From Psychrobacter urativorans (GTDB taxonomy: Bacteria > Pseudomonadota > Gammaproteobacteria > Pseudomonadales > Moraxellaceae), in contig NZ_CAJHBR010000001.1 in the NCBI RefSeq assembly GCF_904846695.1, positions 186,001 through 250,000 of the forward strand: 64,000 nucleotides of DNA, in the 5' to 3' direction. Of the stretch, positions 3,438 to 18,364 are shown one piece after another. The notes below the pieces were generated by a model that was not told where the DNA came from, did not search any database, and was given only the letters and a program-made list of their open reading frames with translations. Positions within the stretch are counted from its first letter, which is position 1. Every line of letters begins with the position of its first letter. Position numbers and translations under genes: made by a program.

Positions 3438-3573
3438 GCGCTACTATTATTTGATTATGATCAAATCAATGAGTGCTCGGCTGCTAACCGTTATACAGTA
3501 ATTAAAGCCCCCTAATAGCGTAGCTAATCTAGCAACATTCCTAGCTACCAATTACTTACAAGAGGAAATAAGC

Positions 3574-4392
3574 ATGAAACTAGTCAAAAAACAATCATTG
3601 CTTGCCGTCGGTTTAGTAGCGCTATTAACGGGGTGTTCATCGAATACCAGCATGAAAGAGGACTCTGCTCAACCCTCGTCTGAGCCCGTGCAAAATGAGT
3701 CTACGCAAGATGCAGCAGTGCAGGATGAGACCGTGCAGAATAATGCTGATTCTATGCAAGAAAAGTCAACGCAAGATGCCAGTGAGTCAGAGCGTTTGGG
3801 TACTCAATGGGGCGATGAAGTTGACTCACGAGTGACTATGGTTGATCTGCGTCGTGTCAGTGACCAACCTATTGAGGAGATGCAGGTAAGTTATGCTGAT
3901 AAGACTTATAAGGGCCGCGCCTTAAATAGCATGTCATTGGTTGCTGGTAAGATTGACTTTTCAGTAACCACGGATGACGGTAATTTATCAATTTATCGTG
4001 ATGCTAGTAATTACTATTTGCAAGGTAGAGCAGGTCAGGCATACCGTCTGGTTTATAAAAACAATAGCAGCAATACTTATGAGATCGTCGCTAGTGTCGA
4101 CGGTATCAACGTTTTGGATGGTAGCGAAGCCAGTCGCTATGACGATGGCTATGTGTTAAACCCTAATGAAGAACTGGTTATTGAAGGTTTCCGTAAGAGT
4201 GAAGATGCAGTAGCCTCTTTTATCTTTAGCAAACCTGAAAATGCTTATGCCGCCAATACCGATAGTGGTTCTATAGATAATACCGGCATCATCGGTTCAG
4301 TCATCTATGAGCTTTATGATCCATCTGAGAGCAAACCAAAAACGCAACAAGCCTTTCCAGCAGATAATGGCTATGCCAAAGCACCAAAATAG
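3574..4392 (+). CDS. Conserved lipoprotein, second of a tandem pair, with a Gln/Asp-rich linker
   Basis: A paralogue of the upstream lipoprotein. The signal peptide again gives lipobox LTGC with C21. The difference is a linker of roughly 40 extra residues between the lipidated cysteine and the conserved domain. It is built from imperfect copies of a short unit (TQDAAVQDETVQN, then MQEKSTQDASES), acidic and Gln-rich, and probably a flexible tether. From ERLGTQWGDEV onward the two proteins align without gaps over almost all of their length. An AGAGGAA site sits before the ATG, and a strong terminator follows at 4465-4498. The 136-base gap between the two genes holds no terminator, so they may be cotranscribed. 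Function unknown. Confidence 0.8.
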   Translation: MKLVKKQSLLAVGLVALLTGCSSNTSMKEDSAQPSSEPVQNESTQDAAVQDETVQNNADSMQEKSTQDASESERLGTQWGDEVDSRVTMVDLRRVSDQPIEEMQVSYADKTYKGRALNSMSLVAGKIDFSVTTDDGNLSIYRDASNYYLQGRAGQAYRLVYKNNSSNTYEIVASVDGINVLDGSEASRYDDGYVLNPNEELVIEGFRKSEDAVASFIFSKPENAYAANTDSGSIDNTGIIGSVIYELYDPSESKPKTQQAFPADNGYAKAPK

Positions 4393-4601: not shown

Positions 4602-5096
4602 TTATAACTCGATAGAGAAGTTTTCGCCTAAGCTCTTATCGATAGCAGTATCAGTCACTGCTGCGGCAGTAATTTTAAACACATTAGCGAATGAATTACC
4701 ATTAGCCCAGTATTCAGCCCCATGAGGCGTTACTTTTATTAGCTGTACTTTAGGATCATCAATACCTTGCTCAAAATAAGCGTTATATATCGGTGACCAT
4801 AACTCTTTTAGCTTTTCTTCATCAGTAACTAGCTCAGCTTTACCAGTAATGGATAGGTAGTTTTTATCATCTTGACTAGCATAAGCGAGGTTAACTTCTG
4901 GATTGTGCTTAATATTGTCAGCCGTGTCAGAAGGACTATGACCAATAAACCAAATTTCTTTAGCGCCAATACTAGTCTCAATAGTATTCATCGGGCAAGA
5001 GTGCAAATGATCCTCGCTAGTACGAGTGGTCAGCATGGTATATTTAATATCATTAACCATCGCTTGAATCTTGTCCATTTGCTGTTGTCTGCTCAT
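4602..5096 (-). CDS. Pyridoxamine 5'-phosphate oxidase-like flavin split-barrel protein (general stress protein 26 type)
   Basis: A 164-residue cytosolic protein of the PNPOx-like split-barrel family, the group of general stress protein 26; members bind FMN, F420 or haem, and no specific reaction can be given here. Family features include the N-terminal helix MDKIQAMVNDIKYTML, the strand with HSCPM replacing the paralogue's HAWPM, and GAKEIWFIGHSPSD. The open frame runs 24 codons further upstream, but I start at 5096: the ATG there has an AAGGAAG site seven bases away, and the start then matches the paralogue at 5359-5853 exactly in length. The two genes lie in tandem on the minus strand and are clearly related throughout. 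Confidence 0.8.
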   Translation of the reverse strand: MSRQQQMDKIQAMVNDIKYTMLTTRTSEDHLHSCPMNTIETSIGAKEIWFIGHSPSDTADNIKHNPEVNLAYASQDDKNYLSITGKAELVTDEEKLKELWSPIYNAYFEQGIDDPKVQLIKVTPHGAEYWANGNSFANVFKITAAAVTDTAIDKSLGENFSIEL

Positions 5097-5259
5097 AAGA
5101 GGCTTCCTTGTCATTTGTAGGGGGTGGTTAGAGCAATGTTTATAGCTTACCGTAACTAATATAGCCAAATAGCCTAATCCAACAATAGAGGTAGTCTGTA
5201 ATAGGCTGTGAAGGTTTGTAAGCTACTATTGGCTTTATTAAAAGTAAAATTTGCAGCAT

Positions 5260-5294
5260 AAAAAACGCCAGTAAAGAGACCCTTACTGACGCTG
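5260..5294 (-). terminator. Terminator after the upstream split-barrel gene
   Basis: Read leftward, a nine-bp stem (cgtcagtaa and ttactggcg, one G-U pair) is followed by six T residues, 65 bases after the stop of the 5359-5853 gene. Confidence 0.7.
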
Positions 5295-5358
5295 GTATTC
5301 ATACTTTATCTGTATCTATCGTTTGCAACTATTTAAAATTTCAGAACTATAGTTAGAA

Positions 5359-5853
5359 CTATAAAGAGATATTGAACTGTTCGCCGACACCTTCAGCAGT
5401 TTTACCATCTTGCATAGCTGCTGCTGCCATTTTGAACATATTCACAGTAGAGCTGCCACTGATCCAGCATTCTATACCATGGGGAACCACTTTAATCAAT
5501 TGCACGTTTTCGTCTTCTTTACCATGTTCAAAGAATGCGCTGTCCATTGGTGACCATAGTTCATCCAATTTATCTTTGTCTACTGGTAACTCAGCATTAC
5601 CACTGACTGAAACATAATTTTTGGAATCTTGAGTGGCGTAAGTTAAGCCTACTTTTTTGCTATCTTGCAGGTCTTTTACCACGTCTGAAGTCTTATCACC
5701 GATGAACCAAATTTCTTTAGCACCGATACTGCTTTCAGTAGTAGTCATTGGCCAAGCATGTAGATCCCCTTTTTTATTCACTGTAGTCATCATAGCGAAT
5801 TTAACATCTTTGATAACTTCTTGAATCTTATCGATCTGTTGTTGCTTGCTCAT
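5359..5853 (-). CDS. Pyridoxamine 5'-phosphate oxidase-like flavin split-barrel protein (general stress protein 26 type)
   Basis: Paralogue of the neighbouring split-barrel protein, also 164 residues. It keeps the more typical motif HAWPMTTTESS near residue 32, followed by GAKEIWFIGD, and a conserved VPHGIECWI region near residue 130. GGGAAA precedes the ATG. A terminator at 5260-5294 separates it from its paralogue, so the two are probably transcribed separately. In Acinetobacter and Psychrobacter such proteins are often stress-induced; that is knowledge of the family, not visible here. Cofactor and substrate cannot be predicted from sequence. Confidence 0.82.
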   Translation of the reverse strand: MSKQQQIDKIQEVIKDVKFAMMTTVNKKGDLHAWPMTTTESSIGAKEIWFIGDKTSDVVKDLQDSKKVGLTYATQDSKNYVSVSGNAELPVDKDKLDELWSPMDSAFFEHGKEDENVQLIKVVPHGIECWISGSSTVNMFKMAAAAMQDGKTAEGVGEQFNISL

Positions 5854-6315
5854 AGTGTTTCCCTTTTGATTTTTAATTATTTGCGATGCTAGTAACCGAT
5901 ACTAGTAAATGGCATGCTAATTGAATTCTAACCGTTGTTTTATTAACTGACCCTAGAATAGCGAAGTGCATAGCGGTATTTATATAGTTTGCCAGTAAGG
6001 CGATGTGAGCGTTTGTAAGGACTACAATAGTTGCGTAAAAAGTGTGAGTGTTTGCCGAGGTGAATAACTCGCTAACTAAGCTTGCTAACTAACAGAGGAG
6101 GGTAAATCTGCACTAAACCTAATGATAAAATAGGCAAAAATCAGCCACTCAATAGCGAGCAAAGAATAAGGGCTTAGTTATATTTGCCACAAACAAGCTG
6201 AATTTATCGTGCTTTGCCCCTGCTTATTTCAGGTCTTCTTGTTATAATGCAACGACCAATTACCTCGCATGACCATAATGCCACATCTACCTTATACTCT
6301 ATGGAACAAGCCTTT
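5854..6315. other. Spacer upstream of purL
   Basis: This spacer lies between divergent genes and should hold both promoters. A strong ribosome-binding-like GAGGAGGG at 6095-6102 is not followed by any open frame. No purine riboswitch or hairpin was seen. Confidence 0.4.
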
Positions 6316-9300
6316 ATGATGACCATTGCCGGACAACCGTTTTTGACCGACTTCCAGACCCAGCAACTCATTAGTCAGTTTCAACAAAAGACTGCACTCA
6401 ATGTGACTCAAATTAGTACCCAACAGGTCTATGTGCTCTCAAGAGAATTAGATGGTGATGAGCATAAAAAAGCCTTAGATCTATTGGCAGTCACTAACAC
6501 AACCGACTTTACCGCAGCGCAAGCGAATCAGCTGCAAGTCATCGTCGGCCCACGTTTTGGTACTATATCGCCATGGGCAAGTAAAGCGACAGATATCTTT
6601 AACAACTGTGAGATCAGTATCAAGCGTGTTGAACGAGTGATCGTCTATACTTTAACCGTCAGTGATTATAAGCAGGCTAAGCTGCCTGCCGCTGCTGAGC
6701 AATTATTGTTTGACCGCATGACCCAAAGCTTAGTTTATGACTTAGCGGATACTAGTAAGTTATTCGATGATCAGCAACCGGCTTCATTGAACCATGTTGA
6801 TGTCATTGGTGCAGGGCGCAGCGCTTTAGAGTCTGCTAATACACAATTCGGTTTTGCCTTATCTAGTGAAGATATCGACTATTTAATGAACGCTTATGTT
6901 GATGAGCTGCAACGCAATCCGACTGACGTTGAGCTAATGATGTTTGCGCAGGCCAACTCTGAGCATTGCCGTCATAAAATATTCAATGCGGAATGGACAA
7001 TCGACGGTGAAGTACAAGCCAAATCATTGTTTCAGATGATCAAGAATACTTATAAACAAAATCCACAAGGTATTTTGTCTGCTTATAAAGATAACGCTGC
7101 GGTAATGGCTGGCGCTGAAGGCTGGCGCTTTTATCCGGTCCCTAAAAATGCCACTGATATCAATTCAACGCATCCCTATGACTTTCATCAAGAAGATATC
7201 GATATTTTAATGAAAGTCGAGACCCATAATCATCCAACCGCTATCGCCCCTTATGCTGGGGCCGCTACAGGCGCTGGTGGTGAGATTCGTGATGAAGGCG
7301 CAACTGGTCGTGGTGGTAAGCCTAAAGCAGGTCTAACGGGCTTTCATGTCTCGCATTTGCACATTCCTGAGTTGGCCGAGAAGTGGGAACAATCCGGTAC
7401 GCTTAGTACCCAAGATTATGGCACACCGGATCGCATGGCCACTAGTTTGGAAATTATGACCCAAGCCCCTTTAGGTAGTGCCAACTTCTCTAATGAGTTT
7501 GGTCGTCCTAATCTATGCGGTTATTTCCGTAGCTTTCAGCTAGATACTTCAGCTGCCAAAGACGGAAGTCAAATGCGTGGATATCATAAGCCAATCATGC
7601 TGGCTGGTGGTTATGGCAATATCAAACGCAACTTAATCGAAAAAAATACTATCCAACAAGGTGATCTGTTGATCGTCCTTGGTGGCCCAGCGATGCAGAT
7701 TGGCTTAGGGGGCGGTGCCGCCTCTTCAGTCGATAGCGGCTCATTAGATGAAGGCTTAGACTTTGCTTCAGTACAGCGTGATAACGCCGAAATGGAGCGC
7801 CGCTGTCAAGAAGTGATGGATCGCTGCTGGGCACTAGCGGGCAATGATGTCGACGTTAGTAATGGCGGCAAAGACGGTAACCCAATCGTCTCCTTGCATG
7901 ACGTCGGGGCCGGTGGTTTATCTAATGCTATGCCAGAGCTAGTCAATGATCATGAAATGGGCGCTCATCTCAATCTACGCCGCATTCCTTCGTTAGAAGC
8001 TGGCATGTCGCCAATGGCGATTTGGTCAAACGAAGCGCAAGAGCGTTATGTACTGGCGATTCATCCTGAGAGCGAAGCTCAGTTCGATGCAATATGCGAG
8101 CGTGAGCGCTGTCCGTATGCCATCTTAGGTACCGCCACTGATATCCGTCAGCTTATCGTTGATGATGAGTTATTAGCTGAGCAGCCAGTCGATATGCCGA
8201 TGCAAGTATTGCTAGGCGGTACGCCAAAAATGAAGCGTAGCTTTAGCCGTCAACAGGCGACTTTGCCAGCATTACAACTTGATGAGGTGAATTTAGCCGA
8301 CTCTATCACTGACGTATTACGTCATCCTACTGTCGCTAGTAAGTCATTCTTGATTAGCATTGGTGATCGCTCTATCACTGGTATGGTGGTCCGTGATCAG
8401 TATGTCGGTCGCTATCAAGTACCAGTGGCAGATTGTGCAGTAACTGCCACGGGCTTGCGCAGTCTTGCAGGTCAGCCGATGACTGGTGAAGCGATGAGCG
8501 TCGGCGAGCGCACGCCAGTGGCTTTGATTAGTCCTACAGCTTCGGCACGTTTAGCGGTTGGCGAAGCGATCACTAACATCGCTGGCGCGTGCATTGCGCA
8601 GTTATCCGATATTACTATGTCAGCGAACTGGATGGCAGCTTGTGGTGATGATAGCGAGGATGCAGCGTTGTTCGATGCCGTTTATGCGGTAGGCGAAGAG
8701 CTATGCCCAGCCTTGGGTATCGCCATTCCAGTCGGTAAAGATTCGCTGTCTATGCGTGCTAACTGGACAGATGAAGACGCCGAGACAGGCGCACAAGATA
8801 AGTCAGTAGTCTCTCCAATGAGCTTAGTGATTACCGCTTTTGCTCCTGTTGTTGATGTGGCAAAAACCTTAACGCCTGAGTTGTTGAATGGTGATAGTGC
8901 GTTCTATCGCATTGATTTATCCAAAGGTAAGTTACGTTTAGGCGGTTCTATCTTAGCGCAAACCCTTAGCCAATTAGGTAATGACTGCCCAGATCTTACC
9001 CAGCCAAGTGATCTAGTAGATTTCTTTAACTTTATCCAAGCGGGTAATGCCCAAAATGTCATCAGTGCTTATCACGATATCGGCGATGGTGGCCTGCTAG
9101 CAACTATTGCTGAGATGCAATTCACTAGTCGTCAAGGTATCAAGCTGTCATTGACTGATGATAATCTATTAGGTCAGTTATTCAGTGAAGAGTTAGGCGC
9201 AGTGATTCAGGTGTTACCTGAAAACGTACCTGCATTGATGCAAATGGCCGAAGAATTCAATGTCGGTGATATGTTGAGCTTAGTGGGACACAGCACTGAG

Positions 9301-10317
9301 GAGGACAGCTTAATTATCCAAACGCCTAAGTTAATCGGTGAGGATACGCTAAGCTTTAGCCGTGGTGAGTTACAACAGCAGTGGAGTCAAGTCAGTTATC
9401 AAATCGCTCGTCGCCGTGATAATCCAGCATGTGTACAGCAAGAATACGACTTGATTACTGATAGTAGCCATAAAGGTCTAATCGCTGCACCAAACTTTGA
9501 TCTCAATCAAAAAGTTGAAGCGCCTTATCTTAATAGCCGTGAAACTAAGCCTAGAGTCGCCATCTTGCGTGAGCAAGGGGTTAACGGCCAGTTAGAAATG
9601 GCAGCAGGCTTCACTCAAGCGGGCTTTGAGGCGGTAGACGTGCACATGAGCGACTTACTAAAAGGTCGTATCAACTTGCGTGACTTCGATGGTCTAGTGG
9701 CTTGTGGTGGCTTTAGTTACGGTGATGTGTTGGGAGCTGGCTCAGGTTGGGCCAATTCTATCTTGTTCCATGATGATTTGCGTATGCAGTTCGTGCGCTT
9801 CTTCGCTCGTCCAGACACCTTCTCACTGGGCGTCTGTAACGGCTGTCAGATGATGGCGCAGCTAAAAGATCTTATCCCTGGTGCTGAGAATTTCCCACGC
9901 TTTATCGCTAATAAATCCGCTCGCTTTGAAGGGCGTACGGTCAACGTAAAAATTGAGCGCACTAAGTCTATCCTGTTCAAAGGCATGCAAGACAGTATCT
10001 TACCTATTGCTGTGGCACATGGTGAAGGCTTGGCAACTTTGAACTCTACCGAGATCGATGGTATGGCCAAACACGGTCAACTCGCTATGCGTTATGTCGA
10101 TAGCCAAGGTCATCCAACGGAGACTTATCCGCTCAATCCAAACGGTTCGCTCGGCGGGGTCACGGGTCTGTGTAGCACCGACGGTCGTGTCACTATTATG
10201 ATGCCGCATCCTGAACGTACGCTAAGCGCTTATAATCATAGCTGGAAACCAGAAGCATGGGATGAGGACGGTGCGTGGATGCGGATGTTCCGTAATGCAC
10301 GGGCTTGGGTCCGTTAG
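6316..10317 (+). CDS. purL: Phosphoribosylformylglycinamidine synthase
   Basis: PurL makes FGAM from FGAR, glutamine and ATP, the fourth step of purine synthesis, as a single large cytosolic enzyme. Domains in order are the N-terminal domain, the linker with FAQANSEHCRHKIFNAEW, two AIRS-like ATP-binding halves (KVETHNHPTAIAPYAGAATG in the first) and a C-terminal class I glutaminase. In the glutaminase the nucleophile is C1174 in GVCNGCQMMA, with the catalytic His-Glu pair in MMPHPERTL. The frame is open to a TTG at 6214, and ATGs occur at 6247, 6301, 6316 and 6319. I start at 6316 because GGAA lies nine bases before it and because family members begin close to this point; 1333 residues is normal for the long single-chain form. 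A diverged copy of its last 28 codons lies at 11981-12067. Confidence 0.96.
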   Translation: MMTIAGQPFLTDFQTQQLISQFQQKTALNVTQISTQQVYVLSRELDGDEHKKALDLLAVTNTTDFTAAQANQLQVIVGPRFGTISPWASKATDIFNNCEISIKRVERVIVYTLTVSDYKQAKLPAAAEQLLFDRMTQSLVYDLADTSKLFDDQQPASLNHVDVIGAGRSALESANTQFGFALSSEDIDYLMNAYVDELQRNPTDVELMMFAQANSEHCRHKIFNAEWTIDGEVQAKSLFQMIKNTYKQNPQGILSAYKDNAAVMAGAEGWRFYPVPKNATDINSTHPYDFHQEDIDILMKVETHNHPTAIAPYAGAATGAGGEIRDEGATGRGGKPKAGLTGFHVSHLHIPELAEKWEQSGTLSTQDYGTPDRMATSLEIMTQAPLGSANFSNEFGRPNLCGYFRSFQLDTSAAKDGSQMRGYHKPIMLAGGYGNIKRNLIEKNTIQQGDLLIVLGGPAMQIGLGGGAASSVDSGSLDEGLDFASVQRDNAEMERRCQEVMDRCWALAGNDVDVSNGGKDGNPIVSLHDVGAGGLSNAMPELVNDHEMGAHLNLRRIPSLEAGMSPMAIWSNEAQERYVLAIHPESEAQFDAICERERCPYAILGTATDIRQLIVDDELLAEQPVDMPMQVLLGGTPKMKRSFSRQQATLPALQLDEVNLADSITDVLRHPTVASKSFLISIGDRSITGMVVRDQYVGRYQVPVADCAVTATGLRSLAGQPMTGEAMSVGERTPVALISPTASARLAVGEAITNIAGACIAQLSDITMSANWMAACGDDSEDAALFDAVYAVGEELCPALGIAIPVGKDSLSMRANWTDEDAETGAQDKSVVSPMSLVITAFAPVVDVAKTLTPELLNGDSAFYRIDLSKGKLRLGGSILAQTLSQLGNDCPDLTQPSDLVDFFNFIQAGNAQNVISAYHDIGDGGLLATIAEMQFTSRQGIKLSLTDDNLLGQLFSEELGAVIQVLPENVPALMQMAEEFNVGDMLSLVGHSTEEDSLIIQTPKLIGEDTLSFSRGELQQQWSQVSYQIARRRDNPACVQQEYDLITDSSHKGLIAAPNFDLNQKVEAPYLNSRETKPRVAILREQGVNGQLEMAAGFTQAGFEAVDVHMSDLLKGRINLRDFDGLVACGGFSYGDVLGAGSGWANSILFHDDLRMQFVRFFARPDTFSLGVCNGCQMMAQLKDLIPGAENFPRFIANKSARFEGRTVNVKIERTKSILFKGMQDSILPIAVAHGEGLATLNSTEIDGMAKHGQLAMRYVDSQGHPTETYPLNPNGSLGGVTGLCSTDGRVTIMMPHPERTLSAYNHSWKPEAWDEDGAWMRMFRNARAWVR

Positions 10318-10395
10318 GATATAGGCTAAGTTAATTTAAAGTATTGTTTTAGACATAAAAAAAAGGTGGGCTCAAAGCTCACCTTTTTTGTGTTT
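10231..10395 (+). repeat. Direct repeat, copy 1: end of purL plus its terminator
   Basis: This segment covers the last 28 codons of purL, the stop, the 3' spacer and the terminator. It recurs in the same orientation 1750 bases downstream (11981-12144) at about nine identical bases in ten. It forms one bracket around the toxin-antitoxin genes. Confidence 0.9.
10361..10389 (+). terminator. Terminator of purL
   Basis: A nine-bp stem (aggtgggct and agctcacct, one G-U pair) with loop caa is flanked by A and T runs. It starts 44 bases after the purL stop. The same structure is repeated, less perfectly, at 12108-12136. Confidence 0.8.
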
Positions 10396-10444
10396 GTGTT
10401 TGTGTTTGTGTTTGTGTTTGGGATTTGGGATTTGGTGTTTGGGG
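10390..10444. repeat. Hexanucleotide tandem repeat gtgttt, five copies, with degenerate tail
   Basis: Five perfect gtgttt units directly follow the T-run of the purL terminator and grade into gggattt-type units. The second purL-end copy at 12139 has a single gtgttt, so the array expanded on this side only. Confidence 0.8.
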
Positions 10445-10469
10445 ATTAAGTTTTAAGTATTTAGGGTAG

Positions 10470-10496
10470 GTTGGTGTGGAGCTTGCGACACCCAAC
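10470..10496. repeat. Palindromic repeat, copy 1 of 3
   Basis: The word gttggtgtgg-agcttgc-gacacccaac is a stem-loop with arms gttggtgt and acacccaac. Related copies lie at 11536-11561 and 11869-11894. It behaves like a REP-type intergenic repeat. Confidence 0.65.
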
Positions 10497-10568
10497 AACA
10501 CATTGAGATATCATTAGTAATATACGTCAATGGAGTATATAATAAGTAATGAATAAAAAGGATTCTGG

Positions 10569-10901
10569 ATGTTACATTTTATAGAAACCCCATTGTTTAC
10601 TAAGCAAGTGCTTAAACTGTTAGACGACGATAACTATAAAGAACTGCAAGCAGATTTAATTAATAATCCAGAACAAGGGGATTTAATTCAAGGCACGGGT
10701 GGCGTTAGAAAAACCAGATGGGCGCTAAATCAAGGTAAAAGCGGTGGCGTACGTATTATTTACTATTTTGTTGATAATCACGGCGTATTTTTTATGTTGC
10801 TTGCCTATTCCAAAAATAAAAAGGTCAACTTATCAAGCCAAGAGAAGGCAAGCATGTATAAGCTAACCCAGCAAATCAAAGAGGTCTACAACCATGAGTA
10901 A
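10569..10901 (+). CDS. HigB/RelE-type mRNA interferase toxin
   Basis: A 110-residue type II toxin of the RelE/HigB superfamily (COG4737-like), expected to cleave mRNA, probably on the ribosome. Family features are the N-terminal strand HFIETPLFTKQVLKLL, LIQGTGGVRKTRWAL near residue 40, then GGVRIIYYFVDNHG and MLLAYSKNKKVNLS, which carry the basic residues used for RNA binding and cutting in relatives. AAGGA precedes the ATG. The stop overlaps the downstream antitoxin gene by eight bases. Toxin-first order is typical of HigBA. The pair lies inside the segment bracketed by two copies of the purL end and is probably a stabilising cargo acquired by transfer. Confidence 0.88.
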   Translation: MLHFIETPLFTKQVLKLLDDDNYKELQADLINNPEQGDLIQGTGGVRKTRWALNQGKSGGVRIIYYFVDNHGVFFMLLAYSKNKKVNLSSQEKASMYKLTQQIKEVYNHE

Positions 10902-11175
10902 TGAATTTTATGATGATCTATCTACGTCGTTGAATCAAGCATTAGCGATTGCTAAAGGAGAAGCTGAGCCTAGCCGACAGTTTAGCTATGAGCTACCTGA
11001 TATAAAGTTAATACGTGGCAAAACAGGACTATCGCAACAACAGTTTGCTCATAAACTCAATATAAGCCCACGTACTTTGCAGAACTGGGAGCAAGGCACG
11101 AGAAACCCAACTGGGGCAGCGGTTACTCTGATGCGATTGTTAGACAAGCAGCCTGATCTGATTGGTTTGGCTTAA
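10894..11175 (+). CDS. HigA-type antitoxin with helix-turn-helix
   Basis: A 93-residue antitoxin and autoregulator paired with the toxin in front of it. Residues about 45-75 form a Cro/C1-type helix-turn-helix (GLSQQQFAHKLNISPRTLQN), followed by WEQGTRNPTGAA, which is characteristic of the HigA/NadS group. The first 40 residues are likely the toxin-binding arm. The gene starts inside the last codons of the toxin, with AAGAGG as ribosome binding site, which implies coupled translation. In this family the complex represses its own promoter; a matching operator was not identified in the spacer at 10400-10568. Confidence 0.88.
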   Translation: MSNEFYDDLSTSLNQALAIAKGEAEPSRQFSYELPDIKLIRGKTGLSQQQFAHKLNISPRTLQNWEQGTRNPTGAAVTLMRLLDKQPDLIGLA

Positions 11176-11535
11176 TAAATAAGAGCAGCGTATTATTTTT
11201 TTAGCTGCTATCTTGGTAGTTCACTGTTAGGCGAGAGAAAGCAAGTGTCTGAGACATTTGACCCAACGCAAGGGAAAATCTGTGATCTTCTTATGGCTAA
11301 GGTGAGAGGCGTTCCAACATTCGAGCGATCACCTCTAGCCAAGCCCCCGCAGCCCAGTGATCAACCAAGGATATCCGCTGCAATCAGGGCTAAAATGATC
11401 TTAGAATCGATATTGAGTGATTGCTTTAAAGTATTTTTAGCTTTTTGAAATTTATGTGCCATGCTTATTTTATATAAAACGGAGCACGAGGCGCACCCTA
11501 CAATTGATTAGCTTAAACTATCGATAAATCCTTAG

Positions 11536-11561
11536 GTTGGGCGGAGCTTGTGACCCCCAAC
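11536..11561. repeat. Palindromic repeat, copy 2 of 3
   Basis: The arms gttgggcgg and acccccaac enclose agcttgtg. It is nearly identical to the copy at 11869-11894 and related to the one at 10470-10496. Confidence 0.65.
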
Positions 11562-11614
11562 AGCTTGTGTAATAACCATAACTTGTCACAAAAGCCAAAT
11601 TTTTAACAGCTTTT

Positions 11615-11743
11615 GTAGGCTGTGGCTTTAGCCCAGCAGCAGCTATGCAAAAGTACTATTTGAGTTATGAAAAGCCAGTTGTTTAACCAGTGGTAAGTTA
11701 TGCCATGATAGCTAAAAATCGCTGGGTTAAAAACCCAGCCTAC
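11615..11743. mobile_element. MITE-like element with 23-bp inverted ends
   Basis: The left end (11615-11637) begins gtaggctgtggc and the right end (11721-11743) closes with cccagcctac. Left end and reverse complement of right end match over 23 bases with about four mismatches. Each end can also fold on itself; gctgggtt-aaa-aacccagc at the right is a perfect palindrome. The 129-base element carries no gene. Target-site duplication could not be settled by eye. Confidence 0.5.
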
Positions 11744-11868
11744 GGTAACTTTTCTATTTTGAATAATGATTTACAGAATTTTGATATTAAAGACTTAATC
11801 TGTTAAGCCTCGCACCTCGAAACAAAAGCTATCTCATGCTAAATTCTAATCTGTCTTTGCATTGGGAG

Positions 11869-11894
11869 GTTGGGCGGAGCTTGCGACCCCCAAC
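11869..11894. repeat. Palindromic repeat, copy 3 of 3
   Basis: The arms gttgggcgg and acccccaac enclose agcttgcg. It differs from copy 2 by one base and lies about 90 bases before the second purL end. Confidence 0.65.
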
Positions 11895-11980
11895 ATCTCG
11901 ATAGTGCAATATTCATCTGTTGACTCTCGACACCCACCTAGAATTATTTTTCAATATAAGCTGAGCATAACCTAAAAGTT

Positions 11981-12067
11981 TATAACCATAGCTGGAAACC
12001 AGAAGCGTGGGATAAGGACGGTGCGTGGATACGTATGTTCCGTAACGCTCGTGCTTGGGTTCGTTAA
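11981..12067 (+). pseudogene. Duplicate of the last 28 codons of purL
   Basis: The sequence reads YNHSWKPEAWDKDGAW and on to RMFRNARAWVR-stop, the C-terminus of PurL with two changes (E to K, M to I). Most nucleotide differences from the real purL end are silent, so this copy evolved as part of a working purL gene, probably in a related strain, before it was placed here. There is no start and no upstream purL sequence. Confidence 0.85.
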
Positions 12068-12107
12068 GATATAGGTTAAGTTAACTTAAAGTCTTGTTTT
12101 ACACATA

Positions 12108-12136
12108 AAAAAAGATGGGCTCAAAGCTCACCTTTT
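12108..12136 (+). terminator. Duplicated purL terminator, weakened
   Basis: The hairpin agatgggct-caa-agctcacct followed by six T residues is the second copy of the purL terminator. One A-C mismatch and one G-U pair weaken its stem. Confidence 0.5.
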
Positions 12137-12215
12137 TTGTGTTTAGTGTATATTGCGATAACTAACTCTCTTGAAATCTGTGAAAGGTTTTATAACTATA
12201 GTGAGCAATAAAACA

Positions 12216-13127
12216 CTAATTCATTTTCTTTATGTCTTTCAAAGTATACTTGGGTTTAGCTTGTCCCACCTGAATAACGTTAAATTCTACTGTAACAGGT
12301 TTATGCAGGTATTCACGATTTATCACGTCAGGGTCTTCAAATGAAGAGTCAATCTTTCCCTTTATTAAAGTTTTATCAGAATATTCCACAAATTCAAAGG
12401 TCCTAGAGTTAGGTAAGACCCCTTGAAAAGCACCCTTATACTCTTCAGTAAATTCAGTAATATTATCTTCTGAAAGGCGTGAAATAAGTTTACTCAAGAC
12501 TTCTTGCGAATTGATACGTATTAATTTCTTATTAAATTCCATTGCGAACAAAGCTTCACTACGGAGCATTAATTCAAGAAATTCATATACTTTACGAACA
12601 GCTCTTGGATGTATCTCATTAATTACATCACTGATTTGCTCGTCTGTGCCATCAATACCATATTGTAGTAGTTTTTGTATATCATCAATAGCTTCCTCAG
12701 TTCCATTCCGTCCTGCTAGCAAGTCATAATCAGGTTCTGGCAACTCTAATTCGAAGCCAAATGAACCTGTTGCAGTACCTGTTATCAATAATTGATGCTG
12801 CTCTCTATTTGGTATAGGCCCTGAAAAACGCAAATTATTATTCAAACTAGCAACTACACTGGTAATCATATCGTTTAAGCTATCAATAGCTTTACCAGAA
12901 AACTCAGCTGTAATACCATAACTTTTATGGACTGGTTTACCTCTGAATGTAAAAATAGTCTTTTTCACTAATCTGTGAGTGTCAACTTTATTAATTGCAG
13001 CTTGAACACTCTTTAAACGTGACTCTAGGCTCATCCTATCGACAATAGCATAAGATGGTGTTTCTTCAATTAGGCTTTCAAGTGTACTTTTTTCAGCAAG
13101 TAACTTTTTATAGTCAATTTCACGCAT
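12216..13127 (-). CDS. Unrecognised protein, partner of the nucleotidyltransferase-like gene
   Basis: A 303-residue protein I cannot place in a named family. Visible parts are a charged helical N-terminus with likely coiled coil (residues 1-52, KLLAEKSTLESLIEE onward), a beta-rich core including KKTIFTFRGKPVHKSYGITA, and a conserved-looking segment LLITGTATGSFGFELELPEP near residues 114-133. A helical middle and a second beta-rich part follow, ending in TLKDIKKMN. There is no signal peptide or membrane span. Its start overlaps the end of the upstream gene by eight bases, so the two are translationally coupled. The codon pattern is more A+T-rich than in neighbouring core genes. The toxin-antitoxin cassette and purL relic lie next to it, which supports an accessory, possibly defence-related, role; this is inference. 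Confidence 0.75.
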   Translation of the reverse strand: MREIDYKKLLAEKSTLESLIEETPSYAIVDRMSLESRLKSVQAAINKVDTHRLVKKTIFTFRGKPVHKSYGITAEFSGKAIDSLNDMITSVVASLNNNLRFSGPIPNREQHQLLITGTATGSFGFELELPEPDYDLLAGRNGTEEAIDDIQKLLQYGIDGTDEQISDVINEIHPRAVRKVYEFLELMLRSEALFAMEFNKKLIRINSQEVLSKLISRLSEDNITEFTEEYKGAFQGVLPNSRTFEFVEYSDKTLIKGKIDSSFEDPDVINREYLHKPVTVEFNVIQVGQAKPKYTLKDIKKMN

Positions 13128-13689
13128 GATTAGACTCTATCTTTAATTCAGAAAGATACTTCATAGCTTCGTTATCATCACTGGGAGACAAAGGAATAAC
13201 AAAGAAACCTTTCCATATATCAGTATCTCTTTGATGAGACCACATACTGTACCAATAAGTACATTTTCTAATACTTGCTTCGTTAAAGCCTAAATCCATA
13301 TCTACCCAATAAGAATCAACCTTGTATTTATTTTTAGCTGTTGGGTTGTCAAATAAATGGATATTTCTCTGAGCCCAGTTAGGATAGTCAGGTATAGTAT
13401 GATAGAAGTTGCTAAAAGTTACTATATCGATATCGTTTGGGGCACGGTCAGCAATTGACTCTACATTTTCAGCAAAACTTCCGTTTACCCATTGGAAACC
13501 TGTTTCAATACCAGAAGAGTATATTGCTTGCCTATATGCTAAAAAGCCAATGAGTATTTCAATTCGTTCAGATGAAAAGGCAAAGTCTTTTATAAATTTA
13601 TTGATATTAATGCTGTATGGTGAGCGATTATAACTATGACCTTCTTCATTGAGCGCGACTGGCGGTATTACTCCCCTTATATTCCACAT
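13120..13689 (-). CDS. Nucleotidyltransferase-like protein (DUF6932-like)
   Basis: A 189-residue protein with the hallmarks of a minimal nucleotidyltransferase fold. Residues G70-S71 precede a spacer and then P84-N-D86-I-D88, the GS...DxD metal-binding pattern. A third acidic strand follows at VDMD (D130, D132), and near residue 150 comes SHQRDTDIWKGFFVIPL, resembling the arginine/KG motif of toxin-type nucleotidyltransferases. The N-terminus MWNIRGVIPP resembles DUF6932 proteins as I remember them. Substrate and reaction are unknown; relatives of this fold modify tRNA, proteins or small molecules. AAGAGA precedes the ATG. The gene is first in a two-gene unit and overlaps its partner by eight bases. 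No mobility gene is adjacent. Confidence 0.72.
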   Translation of the reverse strand: MWNIRGVIPPVALNEEGHSYNRSPYSININKFIKDFAFSSERIEILIGFLAYRQAIYSSGIETGFQWVNGSFAENVESIADRAPNDIDIVTFSNFYHTIPDYPNWAQRNIHLFDNPTAKNKYKVDSYWVDMDLGFNEASIRKCTYWYSMWSHQRDTDIWKGFFVIPLSPSDDNEAMKYLSELKIESNHA

Positions 13690-13967
13690 TCTATATCTCT
13701 TAAATTTTTATGTAAGTGCCAAATGCCTTTGAAAAACTTATTATAAGTCTCAAGTATAAGCTGATTTTACGGTTTAAGCTAAGCTTATTAAGTGCAATTC
13801 CAGTCTAATGCTAAGGCGTAGCGTTTATTTAAGTAATTCTTAATCATAGTATTTAGAATTGTATAATTTCTTAAACCCATTAATTCTATATAAGAATTGT
13901 GCAAAATAAACTATCTCATATAATTTTTATAAATATACAGCATCTAATCGAAATGTTTTTCATCTAA

Positions 13968-14144
13968 TTAATTATCCTTTGAACACCTCTGAGCCCCAGC
14001 AATCAACTCCCGAACCCGATCACTTTCCCTCAGCACACAAGCATCATAAGCAGAAAGCGGCTCAGACTCTTGTTCTTTCTCCTGATCTTGTTTGGCCTTT
14101 TCTGCTAAATATTCTGCAAGTTTATCCGCTTCAGAATCGCCCAT
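13968..14144 (-). CDS. Small acidic protein, 58 residues
   Basis: A short gene read leftward, starting MGDSEADKLAEYLAEKAKQD and ending RCSKDN. A well-spaced GAGGGA lies six bases before the ATG. Residues 5-30 are a highly charged helix rich in Glu, Lys and Gln, and a second amphipathic part contains AYDACVLRESDRVRELI. There is no signal peptide. It lies just beyond the tdh terminator, so it either has its own promoter in a very short space or is reached by read-through. Function unknown; I recall no characterised relative. Support comes from the ribosome binding site and the protein-like composition. Confidence 0.6.
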   Translation of the reverse strand: MGDSEADKLAEYLAEKAKQDQEKEQESEPLSAYDACVLRESDRVRELIAGAQRCSKDN

Positions 14145-14174
14145 AGTTTATCCCTCATATAATTTTTACCCTAT

Positions 14175-14205
14175 AAAAAACGACACTGAAATCAGTGCCG
14201 TTTTA
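14175..14205 (-). terminator. Terminator after tdh
   Basis: Read leftward, aaaacggcactga-tt-tcagtgtcgttttt forms a long stem with one G-U pair and ends in a T-run, about 60 bases after the tdh stop. Confidence 0.85.
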
Positions 14206-14263: not shown

Positions 14264-15289
14264 TCAATCCCAGCTTAAAATCACTTTACCGCATTGTCCA
14301 CTCTCCATGATATCAAAGCCTTCTTGAAAGTCATCAATGTGCATACGATGAGTAATGATGGGCGACAGATCAATACCGCTAATCAGCATTTGCTCCATCT
14401 GATACCACGTCTCCCACATCTCACGGCCATAAATACCCTTTAGGGTTAATGCCTTAAAAATAATCTTGCTCCAATCTACCGTAGTAGTGTTAGGCAAAAT
14501 ACCTAAGAGAGAGATTTTAGAGCCGTTATACATATTACTAATCATGGAATCAAAGGCCTGAGGGGAGCCTGACATCTCAAGCCCAATATCGAAGCCGTGC
14601 ATCTTTAACTCAGCAATAGCACCTTCGATGGTTTCACCCTTGGCTGGGTTTATGGTCATCGTCGCGCCCATTTTTTTGGCAAGTGCTAAGCGATAATCAC
14701 TGATATCACTGACCACAATATTACGTGCCCCTGCGAAGCGACAAATCGCTGTTGCCATAGAGCCAATCAGTCCTGCACCCGTGATTAGCACATCTTCACC
14801 AAGCACAGGGAATGAAAGGGCAGTATGCGTGGCATTACCAAAGGGGTCCATAATGGCGGCCATCTCATCGCTGATACGCTCATCGAGCTTGATGACATTA
14901 TCAGCAGGTATCACCAAGTATTCAGCAAAAGCGCCATCGCGGTCGACGCCTACGCCTATTGTGTTTTCACACACATGTAGCTTACCACGGCGGCAGTTAC
15001 GGCAATGCCCGCAAGCGATATGTCCTTCGCCTGTCACTCGATCACCCACCTCAAAATGCTGCACGCCATCGCCTATTTCGCTAATGATACCGACGTATTC
15101 GTGTCCGATTATCATCGGCGTCTTGATGGTTCTTTGTGACCATTCATCCCATTTGTAAATGTGCAAATCTGTACCACAAATGGCGGTTTTTTTAATTTTA
15201 ATTTTAACGTCATTGATGCCAACAGTAGGTTCTGGCATGTCTTGCATCCAAATGCCTTTTTTGGCATGGGTTTTAACTAGTGCTTTCAT
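14264..15289 (-). CDS. tdh: L-threonine 3-dehydrogenase
   Basis: Tdh oxidises L-threonine with NAD to 2-amino-3-ketobutyrate, which Kbl then cleaves to glycine and acetyl-CoA. The 341-residue length is exactly usual for the zinc-dependent medium-chain form. C38 in [15 protein letters not shown] is the catalytic zinc ligand, HEYVG follows, and [15 protein letters not shown] carries the four structural zinc cysteines. GAGLIGSMA is the NAD-binding turn. AAGAGAA precedes the ATG. It lies 63 bases downstream of kbl on the same strand, the standard kbl-tdh operon, and a terminator follows. Confidence 0.97.
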
Positions 15290-15352
15290 ACTTTTCTCTT
15301 ATTTAACGGTGTTGTACTTAATGGTTGCCTTTAGATAAATACCGCACCACGC

Positions 15353-16543
15353 TTAATCAATCACCTTCATTTGCTTGGCGACTTTGATAAAGGCGGTGAT
15401 ACACTTGTCTAGCTGCTCGCGAGTATGGGCGGCAGAGAGCTGGACACGGATGCGAGCCTCGTCTTTGGGTACGACAGGGTAGAAGAAGCCAATCACATAA
15501 ATGCCCTCGTAGAGCAGTGCATCTGCCATTTGCTGGGAGACGTTGGCATCATAAAGCATAACCGCACAAATTGCCGATGCAGTGGGCTTAATATCGAAGC
15601 CCGCATCTTGCATTTTTTTGACAAAATAGGCGGTATTTTCATGCAGTTTATCTTGTAGGGTATTGTCTTGCGCTAGCATCTCAAATGCTTTTACCCCAGC
15701 TGCCGCCACCATGGGAGGAATGGAGTTTGAAAACAGATACGGGCGTGAGCGTTGACGCAACATCTCAACGATTTCTTTTTTACCCGTGGTAAAGCCGCCA
15801 ATAGCACCGCCAAAGGCTTTGCCTAAGGTACCAGTGATCAGCTCAATGTCACCACGTAGATTGAACAATTCAGTCACGCCGCCACCAGTGTGACCGACCA
15901 CGCCTGCTGAATGCGACTCGTCAATCATTACCATGGCATCATATTTTTGTGCCAACGCATAAATCTCATCCATTGGCGCCACATTACCATCCATCGAAAA
16001 CACACCATCGGTCACAATCAAACGAAAACGCTGTGCTTGCGCCGCTTGTAACTGAGTCTCTAAATCTTGCATATCTGCATTGGCATAACGATAACGGGCC
16101 GCTTTACACAGGCGCACACCATCAATGATTGAAGCATGATTTAGCGAATCAGAAATAATAGCATCCTCGCCGGTTAACAATGGCTCAAAGGCACCACCAT
16201 TGGCATCGAAACAGGCCGCATAAAGAATCGTATCTTCGGTATTAAAAAACTTAGAAATCGCCGCCTCTAATTGCTTATGCAAATCTTGTGTACCACAAAT
16301 AAAACGCACCGATGACATGCCATAACCTGAGTTTTCGATAGCTTGGATAGCCGCCTTTTTAATCTCAGGGTGGTCAGACAATCCAAGGTAGTTATTGGCA
16401 CAGAAGTTAAGCACTTCGCGACCATCGGCGATCTTGATTAGTGCATCTTGCGGAGAGGTGATAACTCGCTCGGTTTTATACAGTCCTGCCGCGCGTATGT
16501 CGCTGATTTCTTGTTGTAAGTGTTTCTGAAAGTCTTGATACAT
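15353..16543 (-). CDS. kbl: Glycine C-acetyltransferase (2-amino-3-ketobutyrate CoA ligase)
   Basis: A PLP enzyme of the alpha-oxoamine synthase family, 396 residues, that converts 2-amino-3-ketobutyrate and CoA to glycine and acetyl-CoA. Features are the N-terminal NFCANNYLGLSDHPE, the DSLNHASIIDG motif, DESHSAGVVGHTGGG and the Schiff-base lysine in TGTLGKAFGGAIGG. AAGG lies seven bases before the start. It is first gene of the pair with tdh; the gap of 63 bases has no terminator. PLP for this enzyme comes from the pathway of the pdxJ gene next upstream. Confidence 0.97.
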   Translation of the reverse strand: MYQDFQKHLQQEISDIRAAGLYKTERVITSPQDALIKIADGREVLNFCANNYLGLSDHPEIKKAAIQAIENSGYGMSSVRFICGTQDLHKQLEAAISKFFNTEDTILYAACFDANGGAFEPLLTGEDAIISDSLNHASIIDGVRLCKAARYRYANADMQDLETQLQAAQAQRFRLIVTDGVFSMDGNVAPMDEIYALAQKYDAMVMIDESHSAGVVGHTGGGVTELFNLRGDIELITGTLGKAFGGAIGGFTTGKKEIVEMLRQRSRPYLFSNSIPPMVAAAGVKAFEMLAQDNTLQDKLHENTAYFVKKMQDAGFDIKPTASAICAVMLYDANVSQQMADALLYEGIYVIGFFYPVVPKDEARIRVQLSAAHTREQLDKCITAFIKVAKQMKVID

Positions 16544-16663: not shown

Positions 16664-17392
16664 TTAAGCACAGATATCTAAATACTGACGCACGACGTTA
16701 TCCATACCTTGCTCTAGCGACTCAATCGTAAATGCATGACCAATCGATACCTCAGCAATATCACTAAGCGCGAGCAGATCAGCCAAATTGTTCAAATTCA
16801 AATCATGACCAGCATTGACGCGGATACCGTTTTGATTGGCTAAGGTAATACAATCGCTAAAGCGTTGCTGCACCTCATCGAACTGCTCGCCGCTATATGA
16901 TCGCGCCCATTCTTCGGTATACATCTCGATCGTCTGTACATCGCTCTCGATGACCGCTTTGATTTGTTCAATATCAGGGTCGATAAACACCGCACAGCGC
17001 GTACCAAAGGCTTGTAGCTCTTTGCTTAACGTTGATAAAAATTCATGATGTTTGATGATATCAAAGCCGTGATCAGAGGTCAGCTGATCTTCACTGTCTG
17101 GCACAAGCGTACATTGATGCGGCTTTACTTCACGGATAATCTTCAAGAACTGCTCGTTTGGGTTGCCTTCGATATTGAACTCAATCTCTGGGTAATCGGT
17201 CAAAAACGCACTGATATCATAGACATCTTGGTATCTGATATGACGCTCATCAGGTCTTGGATGTACGGTAAAGCCTTTGACACCTAGATCAATCAGCTTC
17301 TTCACAAAGTACAACAGGTTGGGGTAGTCAGTACCGCGAGAGTTACGGATTAAAGCCAATTTATTCAAATTCACGCTAAACAATGTGCTCAT
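16664..17392 (-). CDS. pdxJ: Pyridoxine 5'-phosphate synthase
   Basis: PdxJ condenses 1-deoxyxylulose 5-phosphate with 3-amino-2-oxopropyl phosphate to pyridoxine 5'-phosphate, a cytosolic (beta/alpha)8 barrel enzyme. The 242 residues begin with the typical VNLNKLALIRNSRG, followed by GFTVHPRPDERHIRYQDV, whose His and Arg residues bind phosphate. The motifs INAGHDLNLNNL near the C-terminus and ISIGHA-type EVSIGHAFTIES complete the barrel. AAGGA precedes the ATG. One substrate is made by Dxs, encoded 36 kb away. The next gene downstream is kbl, whose product needs PLP, but cotranscription is not shown. Confidence 0.96.
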   Translation of the reverse strand: MSTLFSVNLNKLALIRNSRGTDYPNLLYFVKKLIDLGVKGFTVHPRPDERHIRYQDVYDISAFLTDYPEIEFNIEGNPNEQFLKIIREVKPHQCTLVPDSEDQLTSDHGFDIIKHHEFLSTLSKELQAFGTRCAVFIDPDIEQIKAVIESDVQTIEMYTEEWARSYSGEQFDEVQQRFSDCITLANQNGIRVNAGHDLNLNNLADLLALSDIAEVSIGHAFTIESLEQGMDNVVRQYLDICA

Positions 17393-17431: not shown

Positions 17432-18307
17432 TTAATAAAAATCATTGGTATCAGCATACTTCTTATTCAATGCTTTTAAAATAGCATAAGTCTCTAAGTC
17501 TACCGTTCCTGTTGGGTTACGGGGTCTAAAATGCAACTGAAAAGCATAAACCACATTGCGACTGGCTTTATCCCACTCATCACTATCATTGAGTTGATAA
17601 CCATAATCTCTAAGAGCTTGCTTAATCTGAGGTATCGTGGCCGCTGCAAATGCGTTTGTATCCATAAAAGACAATTTATCAGCGTCATCATACCAAGCGC
17701 CAATGCCATACTCTGTATACAGTCGGTGCCACGGGAACTTCGCACCGGGGTCTATCTTGCGTGACGGTGCCATATCCGCATGACCAATGATATTCTTTGG
17801 TGAGATGCTATATCTGGCTGCCAAGTCTTTTACCAATTGGGCGACTTTTTTAATCTGTAATTCATCGAAGTCAACAAAGTGCTCATAAGGATGATAGTCG
17901 AGATTGCCGTTTTTTAAAGCGTTTCGATATTCATGCTTAATGCCGCTATTGACGATCTCAATGCCAATGGAGGTATCGTTAAGTATCGTTCTACCTGCAA
18001 AGCCGCCATTACCCGCATGCCAAGCACGTTCGCTTTCAGGCACTAAGTTATAAATCTTGTTATCGTCATGGTCCAAAATCAGATAGTGGGCGCTGACTTG
18101 ACCCTTGGTCAAGGTATTTATAGATCTAGCATTATCTGAGACAGTGTAGTGCAGGATGATGGATTTGATTCGCTCGCTCTTGCCAGTGGCTTGATAGGTT
18201 TGGCTGTCTATAACGTAATTCTCAGTGTTAGCCACTTGGGAGGTTGTTGTCACGCAGCCTATTAAGGGCAATGTTAAGCCCAATGCTAAGAAAATATTTT
18301 TTACCAT
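17432..18307 (-). CDS. N-acetylmuramoyl-L-alanine amidase, lipoprotein with peptidoglycan-binding domain
   Basis: An AmiD-like zinc amidase that cuts the bond between muramic acid and the stem peptide, probably in turnover or recycling. From the ATG at 18307 the protein begins MVKNIFLALGLTLPLIGC, a lipoprotein signal with lipobox LIGC and +2 valine. The frame extends to a TTG at 18340, without a ribosome binding site. The amidase_2 domain follows, with zinc ligands in IILHYTV and GHADMAPSRKIDPG and the substrate-side motif VSAHYLI. The C-terminal 60 residues (IKQALRDYGYQL, then VYAFQLHFRP) form a peptidoglycan-binding domain. Domain order matches AmiD. It stands between pdxJ and a DUF2247-like gene, all on one strand. 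Confidence 0.9.
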   Translation of the reverse strand: MVKNIFLALGLTLPLIGCVTTTSQVANTENYVIDSQTYQATGKSERIKSIILHYTVSDNARSINTLTKGQVSAHYLILDHDDNKIYNLVPESERAWHAGNGGFAGRTILNDTSIGIEIVNSGIKHEYRNALKNGNLDYHPYEHFVDFDELQIKKVAQLVKDLAARYSISPKNIIGHADMAPSRKIDPGAKFPWHRLYTEYGIGAWYDDADKLSFMDTNAFAAATIPQIKQALRDYGYQLNDSDEWDKASRNVVYAFQLHFRPRNPTGTVDLETYAILKALNKKYADTNDFY

Positions 18308-18364
18308 GAAATGCTCGGTGTAGGAATGATGTTTTTTCAAAGGGTAGTTCAGATTATGGTATTG

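Follow-up and report, generated by a model that had tools for sequence, protein, structure and literature searches.

A repeated purL 3′ end in Psychrobacter urativorans suggests stepwise addition of cassettes at a defence hotspot

Introduction

How integrase-free defence hotspots grow, and do not merely swap their contents, is still an open question. It is raised by a 64,000-nucleotide stretch of Psychrobacter urativorans DNA (the window), in which a second 3′ end of purL stands downstream of the gene, beyond a toxin-antitoxin (TA) cassette. An earlier note, made from the letters of the window, had read this second end either as the product of an insertion, comparable to elements that integrate at gene ends, or as a recombination scar between diverged lineages. 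The window was compared with the purL loci of the genus, using a sample of one genome per species. purL was present in 102 of 105 genomes, and tblastn with the window's purL open reading frame recovered it in every one of the 100 other loci. The locus comparison rests on same-strand matches of at least 45 bits located more than 200 nt from the purL stop; open reading frames under 80 aa were omitted from its display.

Results

The features between purL and an AmpD-like amidase gene are listed in Table 1. As the earlier note had stated, TA genes lie between the two purL ends; they encode a RelE-type toxin and a NadS/XRE antitoxin. A PF00589/PF00239 search agrees with the note that no integrase lies there. 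Relatives of the toxin were present in 9 of the 100 other loci. The spacer behind the antitoxin is 82-100% identical to that of sister species locus L033 per 60-column window (94% overall). For the 303-aa protein no match was obtained in Pfam, PADLOC or NCBIfam; its partner corresponds to PADLOC candidate PDC-M63A (E 2e-11). This pair stands directly behind purL in locus L070 and behind a purL copy in L101. The hairpins of the purL ends look like transcription terminators, and an Rfam search of 9900-14200 returned nothing at gathering score.

Table 1. Coordinates of features from purL to the amidase gene in the window
Feature	Position	Strand	Remarks
purL open reading frame	6214..10317	+	most relatives align from about codon 33
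purL end, first copy	10211..10395	+	CDS end, stop 10315-10317, untranslated region, hairpin 10359-10389
RelE-family toxin of TA cassette	10569..10901	+	PF06296, E 3.1e-8
NadS-family HTH/XRE antitoxin	10894..11175	+	PF01381; NF041265 67.9 bits, above NCBIfam cut-off
TA cassette spacer, without supported gene	11176..11960	.	two of three copies of a 32-nt repeat
second purL end, 5′-truncated	11961..12149	+	CDS remnant 11961-12067, untranslated region, hairpin 12108-12138
303-aa protein, second cassette	12216..13127	-	directly 3′ of purL-end copy
DUF6932 protein, partner of 303-aa protein	13120..13689	-	PF22014, E 5.5e-26
tdh and kbl (threonine 3-dehydrogenase, glycine C-acetyltransferase)	14264..16543	-	variable part; each in 42/101 loci
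pdxJ (pyridoxine 5′-phosphate synthase)	16664..17392	-	variable; 32/101 loci
AmpD-like amidase	17432..18340	-	conserved right border of interval; 83/101 loci; NF008758 below its cut-off

The recurrence of the purL codons, stop and terminator 1750 nt downstream and in the same orientation was confirmed, a single alignment of both ends giving 87% identity over 189 nt (E 1.5e-60). Positions 10211-10363 match 11961-12113 without gaps (86%, spacing 1750), and the terminator at 10358-10395 matches 12107-12144 in the same orientation (97%, spacing 1749). With a cut-off of E 0.001, a whole-genome search with the purL end gave just these two matches. The terminator core of 16 nt occurs exactly three times in the genome and once more with a single mismatch, and two of these occurrences lie at this locus; an origin of the repeat by chance or from a generic terminator was therefore rejected.

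Over the last 28 codons the copy differs from the window's own purL at nine positions, seven silent and two non-silent (E to K, M to I), so that the differences are mostly silent there, as had been claimed. The description fails against the nearest other-species purL when ten more upstream codons are included, some of which may fall outside the true copy. The copy extends beyond the 28 codons, as ∼20 nt further upstream (11961-11980) belong to the alignment, and these are closer to purL alleles of other species than to the window's own. The CDS part of the copy carries alleles of other species. The untranslated part of the copy, judged by sequence, does not look like a lineage other than that of the window's own end: among 112 sequences each is the best hit of the other (92%), and the sister species' purL end is strongly different from the window's in this part. 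The likeliest reading of this match is that one copy later converted the other. Grouping of the copy with its own purL, which the earlier note had taken as the mark of a simple local duplication, was found, but solely via the untranslated part and not the CDS part. A single donor for the window's copy was rejected, since the best purL ends attain only 87%.

Across the 101 purL loci the cargo between purL and the amidase gene is hypervariable, with many anti-phage and TA genes, and the interval is a hotspot for such cassettes. Nearly empty sites, which had been proposed for comparison, do exist, with the 3′ end of the amidase gene 374 nt (L072) or 519 nt (L095) behind the purL stop, and other cargo between purL ends was likewise found. 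Searching downstream of purL only, we counted 11 second purL ends with CDS (45-200 nt long) in 10 of the 101 loci; repeats of the terminator alone, which stand at about +640 or farther out in additional loci and have little or no CDS, were excluded from the counts. Several of the 91 loci free of such copies hold transposase-like open reading frames when inspected by eye. Genome-wide, eight extra purL-end matches were obtained in 7 of the 102 purL-bearing genomes, all of them downstream of purL on its own contig and strand. For three neighbouring core genes, extra 3′ ends were found in 0/99, 0/104 (setting aside one 24-nt match) and 0/100 genomes; note that conservation in these searches is lower for the control genes (about 70-85%) than for purL (about 85%), and short diverged copies of them are therefore harder to see. 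With a protein query, two purL-end matches were found in 7 of 76 genomes of the genus versus 0 of 140 from 15 other genera.

The copies begin at no fewer than four points in purL, about -205, -190, -143 and -126 nt from the stop. Compared with the purL end of the same genome, the CDS part is 71-87% identical for 10 of the 11 copies and 98% identical over 45 nt for the remaining one. Copies farther from purL are more decayed (rho 0.75, n=11, the points not being independent). The gene behind a copy belonged in 10 of 11 cases to a family that elsewhere stands first behind purL, versus 89 of the 261 other genes of the interval (Fisher p 2.3e-4) or 12 of 35 when only the same loci are compared (p 1.4e-3); open reading frames under 100 aa were not included in these counts.

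The junction in L101 is the only one comparable with relatives of both parents. It falls near codon 18 of an ACT-domain gene (c6) and has a microhomology to purL of 6-8 bp, the length varying with the parental c6 allele. The purL end of this locus is 99% like that of L059 over 143 nt, versus 93% in the purL body, and its purL-end copy is 97% like L083 over 143 nt. For the window's own junction, among the loci only sister L033 reaches it. Window and L033 are 96.5% identical over 5649 nt across purL and cassette; cargo differs behind the copy, up to just before tdh.

Cargo is 93-99% alike in pairs of loci with purL bodies 80-86% identical. L040 and L086 have TA genes and copy in common (98.3% over 885 nt; purL bodies 80.0%), and L070 and L101 have the DUF6932 pair in common (96.8% over 1514 nt; purL bodies 84.3%), its similarity starting at the terminator in both. 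Identity switches at the terminator hairpin, without donor purL DNA upstream, in 9 of 14 cassette-sharing pairs; two of the 14 (L052) were misfitted through a 76-nt insert behind the stop codon and are reported here, not counted as hits. Most profiled pairs other than L101 have no donor tract in the purL end. No signal of excess recombination in the purL 3′ end was obtained from the 79 of 101 loci used, distant and frameshifted ones being excluded: agreement of the last 60 codons with the remainder of purL has a rho of 0.61, inside the range of 0.55-0.79 obtained for other segments. No insertion as such was seen in this comparison of one genome per species; L086 and L107, the closest loci of which one has a copy and the other has none (purL bodies 95.9%), differ in cargo.

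Discussion

The explanation that we favour with moderate confidence is that the purL end served as the recombination anchor for adding cassettes beside the gene, with their other side joined illegitimately and the older end left before the older cassette. Incoming DNA would consist of a purL end and a cassette and would pair with the resident purL end, as the donor-like alleles in L101 suggest. Its other side, as seen in L101 and presumably elsewhere, would be joined illegitimately within the resident purL 3′ end. purL would remain whole because the incoming end completes it, and the displaced resident end, cut at its 5′ side, would remain before the older cassette. The second purL end in the window is most likely the scar of a new set placed before an older one without a dedicated integration enzyme. 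The TA cassette would then be the newer layer and 11961-12149 the displaced end before the DUF6932 pair; alternatively, 11961-12149 may be the end through which that pair later entered. Once in place, purL-end copies would offer extra homology for further exchange. Cargo behind a copy may have been exchanged in this way between the window and L033, a cassette bounded by two purL ends occurs in distant species (L040/L086), and copies could convert each other, as the untranslated region in the window suggests. The route may be natural transformation; ComEC and DprA families are encoded in the window's genome. Note that a left crossover anywhere in the 4 kb of purL would not predict the switch at the hairpin, and later overwriting of purL must be assumed. 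The genus comparison lends support to both of the earlier note's readings: that an insertion left the second purL end behind, and that recombination of diverged lineages left a scar.

It is rather unlikely that the locus is an ordinary hotspot in which whole blocks are swapped by double homologous recombination in purL and the downstream genes, the copies being rare accidents without a role. Such swapping accords with the 91 loci that have no purL CDS copy and with the differing cargo of relatives, and it has been proposed for published mobile-element-free hotspots in the account given of them (PMC5635113). It does not account for the purL-first families behind 10 of 11 copies, for cassette and copy being common to L040 and L086 as one unit, or for the same DUF6932 cassette starting at the terminator both behind purL and behind a copy.

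Integration of a site-specific element at the purL 3′ end by a tyrosine or serine recombinase, since lost or acting in trans, would restore the gene and would fit the position at a gene end, the restored reading frame, the cargo stacked at purL and the sharp left border of several cassettes at the terminator. We hold it to be improbable. In the 10 genomes with copies the purL-amidase interval contains no match to PF00589 or PF00239, and there is thus neither an integrase in or beside the element, as for integrative elements at gene 3′ ends, nor an integron integrase adjoining an array. The nearest PF00589 gene lies 15-23 kb downstream in nine of the ten, with similar score and length in each, and on another contig in the tenth. 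Identical direct repeats with a fixed core are likewise missing at these copies, given their several start points and diverged CDS parts. The likeness to gene-end-integrating elements drawn in the earlier note is therefore not borne out in the usual sense.

A further, very improbable reading is that of an integron-like system with no integron, in which the purL terminator hairpin itself is the point of crossover: a cassette, being cargo plus hairpin, would enter behind purL, push older ones outward and be able to leave between two hairpins, via a housekeeping or trans-acting recombination factor. It is suggested because four cassette families (TA, Rmr, c41 and DUF6932) have shared sequence that starts at the hairpin right arm, with purL and the hairpin loop differing, and because several cassettes terminate in a purL-end hairpin. 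The least credible reading, that the purL end was duplicated in tandem locally in a single lineage and then drifted, is already contradicted for the group: the window copy's best purL end is the window's own and their untranslated parts are mutual best hits, yet its CDS part carries other-species alleles, L033 has the copy at the same place but with differences there, none of the five other genomes tested (L033, L039, L097, L101 and L112) has its own purL end as best match, and cargo lies between the copies.

Under the favoured explanation, some additions leave behind a legible footprint made from the end of an essential gene, and therefore the order, age and donors of defence cassettes would become readable genus-wide. 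The mechanism is open to testing in transformable relatives, and a search rule for new anti-phage systems in Psychrobacter follows: look behind purL and behind purL-end copies. The kinds of mechanism are known; the setting is new.

Acinetobacter baylyi belongs to the same family as Psychrobacter. Homology-facilitated illegitimate recombination is reported in that species as having homology at one end and mostly 3-10 bp of microhomology at the other (PMC3240628). The purL locus would be similar in having a homologous anchor at one end; a microhomology joint of a length within this range is seen in L101 only. The laboratory events described there generally carry a deletion of about insert size (PMC3240628), whereas those at purL are additive and repeated at one place in nature.

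The orphan immunity arrays of the Vibrio cholerae T6SS are described as built by sequential displacement, for which a process resembling homology-facilitated illegitimate recombination is proposed, with later transfer by homologous recombination (PMC5361080). As in that description, modules would enter at an anchored upstream end, older ones would be pushed downstream, and a displaced gene can leave its 3′ remnant between them. The anchor described for the arrays lies upstream of an effector-immunity module whose effectors are displaced (PMC5361080), whereas at the purL locus, where the anchor is not part of a secreted effector module with immunity cargo, it is formed by the end of a housekeeping gene whose integrity must be kept, and defence and TA genes make up the cargo.

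Neisseria minimal mobile elements are defined as two conserved genes with differing whole-gene cassettes between them, incorporated by homologous recombination (PMC3082526). purL and the amidase gene likewise flank differing whole-gene cassettes; the definition as given there makes no mention of second flanking-gene ends, whereas cassettes at purL are stacked, and part of the flanking gene is included in some of them. The locus also resembles the core defence hotspots of Pseudomonas aeruginosa (PMC10250203) and the mobile-element-free hotspots (PMC5635113) as these are characterized, with fixed core flanks and rapid turnover of anti-phage genes or other cargo, often without a mobility gene. 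What the passages describing those hotspots do not mention, and the purL locus carries, is a footprint of stepwise addition at one flank.

The purL locus of the window

The second, diverged purL 3' end reported in the earlier note is confirmed. A purL end comprises the end of the coding sequence, stop codon, untranslated region and terminator hairpin; the second, in the same orientation 1750 nt behind the first, matches it at 86% over 153 nt without gaps and at 97% in a terminator block, or at 87% over 189 nt in a single alignment. No third match was present at E 0.001 in the whole 3.46 Mb genome. Differences in the last 28 codons, read from the sequence, are mostly silent (7 of 9), as had been stated.

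Features of the purL locus, in window coordinates
Feature	Position	Strand	Remarks
Tandem pair of similar genes	2721-4392		upstream of purL; lipoprotein-like (by eye)
Tandem pair of similar genes	4602-5853		upstream of purL; pyridoxamine-oxidase-like (Pfam)
purL ORF	6214-10317	+	
First purL end	10211-10395	+	
GTGTTT short tandem run	10390-10420		behind first terminator; missing from sister locus L033
32-nt repeat, three copies	10469-10500, 11534-11565, 11867-11898		within cassette region
RelE-type toxin gene	10569-10901	+	between the two purL ends
NadS/XRE antitoxin gene	10894-11175	+	between the two purL ends
Spacer, ~0.8 kb			between the two purL ends
Second purL end	11961-12149	+	
Genes for 303-aa protein without family and DUF6932 protein	12216-13689	−	two-gene cassette behind second purL end; also in L070, L101
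tdh, kbl, pdxJ, AmpD-like amidase gene			next after the DUF6932 gene, in that order

Survey of the genus and controls

Of 105 Psychrobacter genomes, 102 gave a match when searched with the purL 3' end. purL and up to 13 kb of downstream sequence were compared in 101 of these 102, the window's among them. An AmpD-like amidase forms a conserved right border in 83 of these 101 loci; the interval before it is variable in content, and the distance from purL stop to amidase 3' end ranges from 374 nt (L072) to 9.8 kb (L042). On the downstream side of purL, 11 copies containing purL coding sequence were found in 10 of 101 loci, one of which (L097) has two. Contigs end less than 2 kb behind purL in 14 of the 101 loci, so the numbers given for cargo and for copies are minimum values.

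The genome-wide search gave eight extra purL-end matches in 7 of 102 genomes, each of them downstream of purL and sharing its contig and strand. Repeating the search with 3' ends from three of the window's core genes, which we take from their proteins to be lysA, pta and ackA, gave no second copies in 99, 104 and 100 genomes, respectively, bar one 24-nt pta match; note that these ends are less conserved than that of purL, making the control less than perfect. With the last 90 PurL residues as query, two matches occurred in 7 of 76 genomes of the genus and in none of the 140 genomes with a purL end among 143 from 15 other genera of the family. Within what was searched, the occurrence of second ends is thus specific to purL and to this genus.

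Order of cargo behind purL

The test gene for each copy was the nearest one behind it that codes for 100 aa or more. Ten of the 11 test genes are of a family that also stands first after purL itself in some other genome; among other interval genes this holds for 89 of 261 (Fisher p 2.3e-4), or for 12 of 35 if comparison is kept to the same loci (p 1.4e-3). The 11 cases come from eight families, of which seven fit, and are not independent. The DUF6932 pair, for example, lies behind a copy in the window and L101 and directly behind purL in L070, while the toxin gene is first behind purL in nine loci and behind a copy in L042. From this, a copy seems to mark where purL once ended. Copies would then be scars of stacking, with cargo nearer purL seemingly the newer, and their decay rises with distance (rho 0.75, n = 11, not independent). 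A shorter form of scar occurs at about +620 to +650 in L059, L060, L061, L064, L080, L100, L103 and L104, where part of the purL stop region and terminator comes after a cassette with a c6 (ACT-domain) gene.

Junctions and the probable mode of addition

Copies start at about −205, −190, −143 and −126 nt from the purL stop; there is therefore no fixed core. No PF00589 or PF00239 match was found between purL and amidase in the 10 genomes with copies. At L101 the junction lies at −143 in purL and at about codon 18 of a c6 gene, whose family representative has ACT domains; 6-8 bp are shared, depending on which c6 allele is taken as parent. The working purL end of L101 is 99% like that of L059 and its copy 97% like that of L083. 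Such a pattern is what recombination with one homologous side and one illegitimately joined side would be expected to leave. Of the two readings in the earlier note, a recombination scar between diverged lineages is better than insertion at a gene end. ComEC and DprA families were found in the window's genome, which allows natural transformation, though it does not show it.

The border at the terminator

In pairs of genomes that share the cassette next to purL and differ in their purL alleles, identity mostly switches at the purL terminator hairpin, on its right arm. Counted from the end of the terminator, the switch falls between −45 and +25 nt in 9 of 14 pairs (six TA, two Rmr and one c41, not independent; two of the 14 were misfitted owing to a 76-nt insert). 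It lies far upstream in L065/L066 and downstream in L053/L077 (+28) and L054/L115 (+151); the DUF6932 cassette has the same border between L070 and the L101 copy. Later recombination that overwrote purL and stopped where homology ends is the likelier explanation; that the hairpin, near which most switches fall, is itself the crossover point is held less likely. Such an insert, ~76 nt long, comes immediately after the purL stop and precedes the usual untranslated region in L035, L036, L043, L049, L052, L065, L066, L071, L076, L077, L090, L096, L098, L101, L108 and L113.

Transfer, and probable exchange and conversion

In L040 (P. piscatorii) and L086 (P. submarinus), TA genes and purL copy are 98.3% identical over 885 nt against 80.0% for the purL bodies, similarity fading in the untranslated region of the copy; a cassette with a purL end on each side has thus passed between distant species. 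Aligning the window with its sister L033 (Psychrobacter sp. TAE2020) gives 96.5% identity over 5649 nt from purL through the TA cassette; within this alignment the purL-end copies are only 73-88% alike per alignment window, and behind them the two loci carry different cargo up to a point just before tdh. Among 112 sequences, the untranslated parts of the window's two ends are each other's best match (92%), whereas the purL end of L033 is very different between about −30 and +110. Our reading is that one of the two copies probably converted the other in the lineage of the window; alternatively, a single donor may have supplied both.

Cargo

Of 20 interval proteins, hand-picked from families rather than sampled at random, 14 matched PADLOC-DB at E 1e-5 or better and 10 at 1e-20 or better. 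The latter ten were RmrA, RmrT, LmuB, HamA, HamB, ThsB, AriB, two candidate families and an LmuA relative with a metallo-beta-lactamase domain. PADLOC gave no match for the window's toxin or 303-aa protein and only helix-turn-helix matches for its antitoxin. Pfam, PADLOC and NCBIfam likewise gave no name for the 303-aa partner of the DUF6932 protein; the two-gene cassette is a candidate defence or TA pair. With the window's toxin as query, 12 loci were obtained from species genomes, 10 of them titled Psychrobacter; 8 of the 12 have a purL end, or a copy of one, in the flanking sequence retrieved. The contig L145, titled Streptomyces cinereus, has 46% G+C in the fetched stretch and a toxin 65% identical to the window's, and is possibly mislabelled or contaminated.

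Comparison with known systems

Among the open-licence papers listed on purL in Psychrobacter, natural transformation in the genus, purL as an integration site and homology-facilitated illegitimate recombination, none was named that describes the purL locus. Several papers concern related systems: the immunity arrays of V. cholerae, for which stepwise displacement with homology on one side has been proposed (PMC5361080); homology-facilitated illegitimate recombination (PMC3240628); minimal mobile elements (PMC3082526); hotspots without mobile elements (PMC5635113); and core defence hotspots (PMC10250203). The purL region is best read as a variant of known cassette regions built by recombination, one that grows additively, has the end of a housekeeping gene as anchor and leaves readable footprints.
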